The notes beneath the pieces are model-generated. The model worked only from the letters and a program-made list of their open reading frames with translations, was not told the DNA's origin and searched no databases. The position numbers and the translations under genes were made by a program. Shown piece by piece: positions 1,203 to 12,642 of a DNA stretch of 15,556 nucleotides. Source of the DNA: Dehalococcoidia bacterium (GTDB lineage: Bacteria > Chloroflexota > Dehalococcoidia > GIF9 > AB-539-J10); the NCBI GenBank assembly GCA_030627025.1, contig DAOUSX010000004.1, positions 1 to 15,556 of the forward strand, given 5' to 3'. Numbering within the stretch: the first letter of the stretch is position 1; every line of letters begins with the position of its first letter.

Positions 1203-1343
1203 TCACCTTGAATTGACAACTATTTGAACCTCCGCCCCCAGCATCTCGCCAGCTCTTCTCTCTACTCTAATCTTTATCTCGGCGACCATGTTCTGCATTT
1301 CTAAACCTTCGCCGGCCTGCTTCAGGTAAAGGCGCAGAGCCTC
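1203..1343 (-). pseudogene. Remnant of a mobile-element-type helical protein (C-terminal piece)
   Basis: Reading 1343 down to 1203 gives 46 codons and a TGA. The segment QNMVAEIKIRVERRAGEML is typical of small helical proteins found in phage, plasmid and integrative-element genomes, in which the pattern A-E-I-x-x-R-A-E-R-R-x-G-E-x-L recurs. It is preceded by EALRLYLKQAGEGLE, which also fits that family. There is no start codon: an in-frame TAG at 1344-1346 sits directly before the Glu. I read this as a broken piece of a longer gene. The family has no function I can name. Confidence 0.5.
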
Positions 1344-11880: not shown

Positions 11881-11926
11881 TCGGGGCGAGAGGACTCGAA
11901 CCTCCGACCTCAGCGTCCCGAACGCT
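11881..11926 (-). repeat. Stranded 3' fragment of tRNA-Pro (attL/attR-like copy)
   Basis: These 46 bases are identical to 12569-12614 and, on the minus strand, cover the tRNA from the anticodon stem through the T arm to the discriminator base. Identity then breaks with one mismatch, four matching bases and complete divergence. On the outer side this copy is followed by TTA where the intact tRNA has CCA. It has no 5' half and cannot form a tRNA. Confidence 0.85.
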
Positions 11927-11984
11927 ACGCGTGTTGCAAGATACGAGGTATCAGTCGTTTTGATTGTTCGCAGCAAGGAGTTTG

Positions 11985-12013
11985 TTGCTCTTGATAGCTG
12001 TTGAAGCTATAAT
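11985..12013 (+). promoter_or_regulatory. Predicted promoter of hicBA
   Basis: TTGCTC at 11985-11990 and TATAAT at 12008-12013 are separated by 17 bases, the ideal spacing for the housekeeping sigma factor. The palindrome TAGCTGTTGAAGCTA (11995-12009) lies across the spacer and the edge of the -10 and is a candidate operator. The predicted transcript starts about 70 bases before hicB. The same TTGCTC/17/TATAAT wording is found at the tRNA-Pro promoter. Confidence 0.6.
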
Positions 12014-12091
12014 AAGTTGTGAGCGGTGTTGATTAAGTGAAAAGCATGTCTTTTACTGGAACAGGCAACAGGAGGCTAAGAGGGGTGAAAA

Positions 12092-12346
12092 TTGATTACA
12101 CAATATATTGAGGCTGCGCTGAGTAGAGCGAGGTATGAAATCATTGAGGATGAGGAGCCATATTATGGGGAGGTTCCGGAACTTGAAGGCGTATGGGCTA
12201 CGGGCAAAACACTTGAAGAGTGCCGCCGCAATTTGGCTGAGGTTATTGATGGTTGGCTTGTGGTGAGGCTTAGAAGGGGATTGGATATTCCTTCTATAGG
12301 GGAATACAAAATAGAGGAACTGAAAATATTAAAAGTCGGTGGCTGA
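12092..12346 (+). CDS. hicB: HicB-family antitoxin, short form
   Basis: This 84-residue protein has the HicB partial RNase H-like fold: a first strand with YEIIEDEEPYYGEVPELEGV, then WATGKTLEECRRNLAEVIDG (about residues 35-54), the conserved helix that packs on HicA. HicB neutralises the HicA RNase by direct binding. Only about 30 residues follow the core helix, and none looks like the ribbon-helix-helix or helix-turn-helix tail by which larger HicB proteins bind DNA. Translation must start at TTG 12092, because a stop (TGA) lies two codons upstream in frame; GAGGGG is 6 bases before it. Its end overlaps hicA by eight bases. Confidence 0.85.
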   Translation: MITQYIEAALSRARYEIIEDEEPYYGEVPELEGVWATGKTLEECRRNLAEVIDGWLVVRLRRGLDIPSIGEYKIEELKILKVGG

Positions 12347-12557
12347 ACTTTCAGCTGTTTCATGGACAGAGCTGGTAAAGCGGCTTCATAAGCTTGGATT
12401 TGAAGGACCTTTCCGAGGCGGTAAACATCCCTACATGATAAAAGGGAACTTGGTGTTAACCATTCCTAATCCGCATCGTAGAGCGATTGGGATTTCTCTT
12501 TTATCCCGGATTTTAAAACGGGCTAAAGTTACCAGAGGGGATTGGCTTAAACAATAG
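12339..12557 (+). CDS. hicA: HicA-family toxin (mRNA interferase)
   Basis: A 72-residue protein with the small double-stranded-RNA-binding-like fold of Hic[21 protein letters not shown] (helix and turn), then [10 protein letters not shown] with the conserved catalytic His at about residue 29, a strand LVLTIPNPH, and a C-terminal helix [18 protein letters not shown]. The His is present, so the toxin is likely active when free. It starts at GTG 12339 inside the end of hicB, giving coupled translation with antitoxin first, the common HicBA order in many non-enteric genomes. Its stop lies 8 bases before the 3' end of the convergent tRNA gene. Confidence 0.87.
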
Positions 12558-12565
12558 CTTTCTGC

Positions 12566-12642
12566 TGGTCGGGGCGAGAGGACTCGAACCTCCGACCTCA
12601 GCGTCCCGAACGCTGCGCGCTACCAGACTGCGCTACGCCCCG
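12566..12642 (-). tRNA. tRNA-Pro (anticodon CGG)
   Basis: Reading 12642 down to 12566, the acceptor stem CGGGGCG pairs with CGCCCCG, the D stem is GCGC/GCGC, the anticodon stem CAGCG/CGCTG encloses TTCGGGA with anticodon CGG (reads CCG), and the T arm is GGAGG-TTCGAGT-CCTCT with one G-T pair. The discriminator is A and CCA is encoded, for 77 bases in total. All arms close, so it should be functional. Its 3' 46 bases are duplicated at 11881-11926. Confidence 0.95.

Follow-up and report, generated by a model that had tools for sequence, protein, structure and literature searches.

Beside an intact tRNA-Pro(CGG) gene, the window (the whole stretch of 15,556 nucleotides that was analysed, which is contig C47 of its own genome, G000) carries a pair of genes, hicB and hicA, closed off on the far side by a second copy of the 3′ part of the same tRNA (Table 1). 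Both genes are read towards the tRNA and overlap by 8 bases, and hicA stops 8 bp from the CCA end of tRNA-Pro, where the CCA is encoded (12566-12568). Adjacent and overlapping, with matches to PF07927 and PF21748 above cut-off, they have the domains of a HicBA type II toxin-antitoxin system, and the HicA reading frame is open in the window; HicB is 96% identical in amino acids to the HicB of genome G008, and HicA is 71-72% identical to its counterparts in G005 and G081. Judged by the ORF list and Pfam profiles, hicB and hicA are the only plausible genes between the repeats (a 66-aa ORF lies on the opposite strand, overlapping hicB) and no integrase was found there, in agreement with an earlier sequence-only reading, which had seen almost nothing else within the unit.

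Table 1. Features of the micro-island in the window and, below them, gene content of the successive units beside tRNA-Pro(CGG) in genome G021.
Feature	Position	Strand	Details
Intact tRNA-Pro(CGG), seat of the island	12566..12642	-	ARAGORN; Rfam RF00005, 65.4 bits
Displaced tRNA-Pro 3′ fragment, att-like repeat, distal end	11881..11926	-	exact 46 bp; 50/51 on extension to 11931
att-like repeat copy within intact tRNA-Pro, proximal end	12569..12614	-	exact 46 bp
Micro-island unit	11881..12568	.	688 bp from repeat start to repeat start; homologue G008:C135:157-737
hicBA leader	11932..12091	+	TATAAT 12008-12013; homologous to G008 leader
hicB antitoxin, 84 aa, TTG start	12092..12346	+	PF21748 E 4.8e-33; PF15919 E 1.6e-4, under its cut-off
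hicA putative toxin, 72 aa, GTG start	12339..12557	+	PF07927 E 3.7e-8
G021 unit 1 outward from tRNA			asd
G021 unit 2 outward from tRNA			nucleotidyltransferase + HEPN protein
G021 unit 3 outward from tRNA			HicB-like + ribbon-helix-helix protein; also partly masked ORF
G021 unit 4 outward from tRNA			nucleotidyltransferase + HepT-like protein
G021 unit 5 outward from tRNA			HTH protein + PemK/MazF toxin + unnamed ORF
G021 unit 6 outward from tRNA			DUF433 protein

The same reading had given the pair its own promoter, and here the evidence is divided: by eye, the perfect TATAAT of the leader is preceded, 17 bp before it, by a weak TTGCTC (11985-11990), but a consensus promoter scan upstream of hicB found no promoter, so that the claim is plausible and unproven. 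The leader is alike in G000 and G008, with a local alignment score of 20 that was matched by 1 of 1000 shuffles, and AAGCTATAAT is conserved in the G008 leader region.

The repeat spans the tRNA from the discriminator base back to about position 29, which bears out the suggestion that the duplicated block runs from the anticodon stem to the discriminator; the left copy is then followed by TTA, against CCA at the intact tRNA. The structure lies far beyond chance, two matches to the 46-mer being found in none of 200 shuffles of the window. When extended, the copies (11881-11931 and 12569-12619) remain identical at 50 of 51 positions, and because the repeat is so nearly perfect the insertion in G000 is likely to be recent. 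Other cassettes with this tRNA-Pro end, and an integrase that uses it, had been envisaged in the same genome, and neither was found: in G000, which is 66% complete (1.18 Mb in 204 contigs), a 31-mer scan with up to 3 mismatches matched only the two window sites and tRNA-Pro(TGG), and no integrase using the tRNA-Pro(CGG) end was seen. A weak tRNA-Pro-like stretch elsewhere in the window (1226-1248, score 26) is near background, and a match of the TTAG after the left piece to genus g9 was rejected as too short to count.

Among the 84 genomes of the order that we compared, HicBA-like DNA occurs in 8, G000 included, and one of them, G008, holds the same cassette. On its contig C135 the HicBA pair is oriented as in G000 and flanked by two tRNA-Pro pieces, a decayed one at 157-192 and a longer one at 672-737; as in G000, a tRNA-Pro piece stands on the leader side and the hicA end is at the tRNA CCA. 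The hicB genes are 90% identical in nucleotides; more than half of the G008 hicA is missing, and only 79 bp of its 3′ part align. The outer neighbours are different, apgM-tRNA and an acyl-CoA dehydrogenase gene in G000, asd and an unnamed 91-aa ORF in G008. As both inner ends are alike and the outer neighbours differ, we infer that what moved was already the minimal unit. Contig C135 starts inside asd and the G008 tRNA contig, C134, ends inside asd; this split of one gene over two contig ends, in the order seen in G021, suggests that the contigs are probably adjacent, by synteny of asd and not by assembled sequence. A piece on G008:C121, at first taken for tRNA-Pro(CGG), proved to be tRNA-Pro(TGG).

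The synonymous divergence of hicB between G000 and G008 is low (dS 0.54, bootstrap 0.31-0.94; dN 0.02), against dS 1.69 and 1.68 for apgM and ask beside the same tRNA. None of 64 core-gene windows of 84 codons had a dS of 0.54 or less (minimum 0.91; 14 were saturated or undefined), so that the cassette has spread between lineages and is younger than the split between the genera of G000 and G008; for a pair within one genus, G000 and G002, the dS of apgM is 0.47. Horizontal spread of the window cassette between genera, beyond vertical descent, is thus well supported by this divergence. Since 32 of the 120 HicB relatives among the matches listed (of 2430) are full-length at 90-96% identity, not counting the window protein, a third source would be as likely as direct exchange between G000 and G008. 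Together, the G008 cassette between its tRNA-Pro pieces, its other neighbours and its low dS uphold the earlier claim of site-specific insertion at a tRNA 3′ end by a unit that has no integrase, and insertion at the tRNA-Pro 3′ end is well supported.

We read the 3′ side of tRNA-Pro(CGG) in 43 genomes besides G000, over spans of 0.5 to 19.9 kb, and found a HicBA pair directly behind the tRNA (up to four ORFs, first 3 kb) in none of them. In G021 a lone HicB-like ORF lies 2.5 kb from tRNA-Pro; the tRNA-Pro contigs of G010 and G004 each contain a HicB- or HicA-like match, 17 and 8 kb off. By eye, a mazG-fmt-dnaA run is kept behind tRNA-Pro in most other families read, and in G010 of the window's own family; within that family, gene content behind the tRNA varies. 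A strict empty tRNA-Pro site could not be shown, since the left flank of the island was found in none of the relatives. The G060 site, half N, was uninformative. In G002 tRNA-Pro is directly followed by a methyltransferase gene that looks ArsM-like by eye (C45, L022, 2754-3599); it precedes the genes that come directly after tRNA-Pro in G009, and no tRNA piece was found there.

An empty site does exist for a second HicBA micro-island of G000, of 593 bp, which lies in the 3′ end of a tRNA-Met gene (contig C8, L285, 1-636). Its ends are an exact 43-bp repeat of the tRNA-Met 3′ end (1-43 and 594-636), and a HicB-HicA pair is all that they enclose, HicA being confirmed by PF07927 and HicB named by eye. 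In G001, of the same genus, the whole tRNA-Met is left of the cassette, just downstream of 23S rRNA; the displaced tRNA-Met piece is followed by a terminator-like hairpin, and the cassette's different hairpin comes right after the tRNA (by eye). In G018 and G072 the 23S-tRNA-Met run leads straight into the hairpin found behind the displaced piece, with no HicBA, and the homology beyond tRNA-Met is about 45 bp; these two sites are nearly identical despite their assignment to different genera and are therefore counted as one observation. Filled and empty sites thus demonstrate insertion at the tRNA-Met 3′ end.

The 3′ side of tRNA-Met could be read in 22 genomes of the 42 with any match (G000 and G009 not counted), with a displaced tRNA-Met piece 0.6 to 2.8 kb away in 7 and none in 15. 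What the inserts carry varies: HicBA in G016, single ORFs in G069 and G071, two larger genes in G031, no convincing gene in G028, and in G008 two ORFs together with a 37-aa tyrosine-integrase remnant, 59% identical to an integrase of G054. In G009 (contig C113) a homologous HicBA unit is bounded by tRNA-Met pieces and the intact tRNA is absent there; G003 was rejected as a site, as part of the right flank is present with no tRNA. The tRNA-Met cassette differs from that of G009 by dS 1.11 (0.71-1.96), against 1.54 for core genes, and from that of G016 by dS 1.04 (0.71-1.90), against saturated core genes; its divergence is not clearly different from that of core genes, so that vertical descent is possible there.

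Insertion at tRNA-Pro(CGG) may also have happened repeatedly. Beside the intact tRNA of G021, six tRNA-Pro(CGG)-like pieces (scores 32-71) lie within 6.8 kb (C111, L025, 2102-8988), and G008 has three; all are on the tRNA strand and are 74-93% identical to the G000 tRNA. At a score of at least 30, full tRNAs excluded, such pieces were found neither in 39 other tRNA-Pro flanks (557 kb) nor in 76 HicB loci of other taxa (501 kb), and at score 26 there were two matches in each set. In the G000 and G021 pieces the 5′ part is missing, the match starting at tRNA positions 27-42, and most of the 3′ end is preserved. Piece identity does not fall evenly with distance, the outermost of G021 being 93% identical. 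To judge by their predicted products, the G021 units carry mostly toxin-antitoxin-type genes, and BrxC/BrxD-like genes follow the third piece of G008; both arrays look like stacked insertions with decaying ends. We came to doubt that asd, the gene separating tRNA-Pro from the first piece in G008 and G021, is a cassette: it is behind tRNA-Pro also in G011, G029, G031 and G033, and in G013 (at a contig end, by eye), and as these have no piece its position may be inherited synteny. A 91-aa protein with no Pfam match is encoded in both arrays, at 2980-3255 of L025 (G021) and 886-1161 of L023 (G008), with tRNA-Pro pieces close by in each.

PF00589 matches were present in all 8 genomes tested, with four in G000. 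One of these four is beside a tRNA-Pro piece: a tyrosine integrase on contig C63 (L234, 2532-3865) adjoins a 3′ piece of tRNA-Pro(GGG), of which another piece was seen on C130 (L286, 2538-2580). G054 encodes two related integrases, each beside a tRNA-Pro(CGG) piece with its CCA (C28, L232, 4777-5676; C56, L233, 1464-4050); the two loci share 76-79% identity in integrase and att region, and one integrase is separated from its piece by a transposase-like ORF. Relatives of the G054 integrase (E ≤ 1e-20) occur in 21 of the 84 genomes, with 29 matches counting the query itself, and a tRNA or tRNA-end piece is present at 26 of these 29 loci, query included (many tRNA kinds, two short). At that threshold G000, G008 and G021 have none, and the window island and the G054 integrase contigs share nothing at E ≤ 1 beyond the tRNA part.

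In contrast to the 26 of 29 integrase loci, a tRNA or tRNA-end match was found at 10 of 79 HicB loci of other taxa, counted by a scan with all tRNA ends and not inspected singly, and at 7 of 30 HicA loci (from 12 genomes, out of 51 matches). HicA stands between two tRNA-end pieces at 4 of the 30: G000:C47, G000:C8, G001:C58 and G009:C113. That tRNA seating is a general habit of this HicBA was rejected from 88 loci (L115-L202), of which three had a tRNA by ARAGORN, none of them with a repeated tRNA end, a test to which fragment-only loci are invisible; the scan for tRNA-Pro(CGG) pieces (score 30) covered 76 of the 79 loci L124-L202 and gave no match, the three Dehalococcoidia or Chloroflexi loci omitted being also present as contigs of our genomes. 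Nor does the unit look like a phage or plasmid fragment: a distant BLAST search matched 94 phage and 105 plasmid records, of which the 20 listed for each matched the tRNA part only and none covered 80% of the cassette query in one place, a 29-mer of the tRNA end was found in no viral contig, and no relative was confirmed when viral contigs were searched for HicB.

We propose that the unit is a non-autonomous, att-bounded HicBA cassette, inserted by a tyrosine integrase at tRNA-Pro(CGG) and kept by HicBA addiction, and we consider this the probable explanation. A tyrosine integrase of the order's common tRNA-targeting kind would recombine a circular form of the cassette with the tRNA gene; alternatively, its substrate could be a deletion derivative of a larger, integrase-bearing element. 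The tRNA would then end in a 3′ part brought by the cassette, and the host's original one would be displaced by 688 bp. Having no integrase, the cassette would be stable as long as none acted on it from elsewhere, in trans or in cis, and HicBA addiction would then favour its retention. Repeated insertions at one tRNA could give arrays, as in G021 and G008, in which the older repeats decay. The interpretation of the sequence-only reading is in this way largely supported, and reaches past the window locus: our findings suggest that very small, integrase-less toxin-antitoxin cassettes repeatedly settle in tRNA genes of this Dehalococcoidia group.

The unit could instead be what is left of a larger, integrase-bearing island that entered tRNA-Pro and lost all but HicBA, its minimal form never having moved by itself. 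HicBA would then have been kept by selection, antitoxin loss being harmful (as proposed), and the integrase remnant between tRNA-Met and its piece in G008, like the decay of the G008 hicA itself, fits such erosion. We think this unlikely, though worth keeping in view, as the minimal ends are alike in G000 and G008 despite the fresh repeat of G000 and the old split (dS 0.54), so that the shrinkage must precede transfer; a minimal unit moved by a trans-acting integrase is what we would prefer over a stripped remnant.

Homologous recombination through tRNA identity, or a tandem tRNA duplication with one copy decayed, seems a good deal less credible. One G008 piece does span tRNA positions 7-72, nearly the whole tRNA, and tRNA-Met of G016 shares with its piece a letter that differs from G000 and G001, which fits local exchange. 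Set against this are the G000 and G021 pieces, shaped as integrase sites are known to be, with the 5′ part gone and the 3′ end mostly intact, and, by eye, the hairpins at tRNA-Met, one inside the insert and the other, behind the piece, common to the empty sites, as insertion predicts. That two contexts were wrongly assembled into one across the tRNA repeat might be suspected because G000 is fragmented and contigs of G009, G052 and G058 start at or within about 30 bases of tRNA-Pro(CGG); yet the unit recurs in G008, where its repeats are decayed and unequal, and the G001 assembly contains a similar unit complete, and such an error is very improbable indeed.

Extending the preferred reading, of a HicBA cassette inserted by a tyrosine integrase, one could imagine in this Dehalococcoidia family an integron-like economy on tRNA 3′ ends, in which tRNA-specific tyrosine integrases, encoded elsewhere, would capture one-module cassettes, mainly toxin-antitoxin pairs, line them up beside a tRNA gene and carry them from genus to genus in units of 0.6-0.7 kb; this is speculative and, on balance, doubtful. 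Chromosomal integrons are arrays of one-to-few-gene units, rich in toxin-antitoxin genes, each with its recombination site; unlike in integron cassettes, the sites in the present case consist of tRNA 3′ ends, and the locus is that of a tRNA.

The kind of element is already known in outline, as the available parts of several published accounts indicate. The ssrA islands of Dehalococcoides, of the same bacterial class, stand in tandem, delimited by 3′-end repeats of one RNA gene, and 15 of them have no integration module and were proposed to be possibly cis-mobilizable (McMurdie 2011, PMC3146451). RNA-gene 3′-end repeats and module-less islands are thus common to both systems; as described there, however, ssrA islands have a tmRNA target, a serine recombinase, a 20-bp repeat and cargo including reductive dehalogenase genes, whereas the seats here are tRNA-Pro (that of the window island) and tRNA-Met, the repeats are of 46 or 43 bp and the content is HicBA only. 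CIMEs, which are att-bounded, have no integration or transfer genes and accrete in tandem, are defined in the part available as decayed conjugative or mobilizable elements (PMC5704250). The window island has attL-/attR-like 46-bp repeats (putative sites) at both ends and neither integrase nor transfer genes inside, but unlike for CIMEs no parent with matching ends was found for it. Additive flexible genomic islands at tRNA-Lys in Methylophilaceae have repeats of the last 20 nt of the tRNA and range from 330 bp and one coding sequence upward, with 79-80% of proteins of unknown function; the accessible text makes no mention of toxin-antitoxin-only units, which the HicBA-only window island is (PMC10872708). 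Tycheposons, of 4-200 kb with a tyrosine recombinase and a tRNA at the border (PMC10872708, in part), differ from the window island, which has 688 bp and no recombinase, and tRNA-seated remnants and horizontally acquired vapBC pairs are on record, from what is available of the source, for Sulfolobus islandicus (PMC3718332). We found no paper on HicBA-only tRNA micro-islands among the open-licence literature searched; what is new is the micro scale of toxin-antitoxin-only units, seen at two tRNAs.

These islands illustrate the small size possible for a unit that spreads horizontally and is seated site-specifically, and give a concrete route for lone toxin-antitoxin modules into chromosomes. With two micro-islands in one genome and empty sites for one of them, trans-mobilisation becomes a testable question: is a 600-bp HicBA cassette cut out by the tRNA-specific integrase that a resident element encodes?

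Two further loci may be recorded here. The third HicA of G000 starts contig C117 (L304, 1-374), about 60 bp upstream of a whole tRNA-Ser(GCT), and no repeated tRNA end was seen there. On contig C62 of G021 (L279), two tRNA-Met 3′ pieces (1141-1184 and 2669-2714) lie 1.5 kb apart and enclose two ORFs of 185 and 182 aa, a small island of the same kind.
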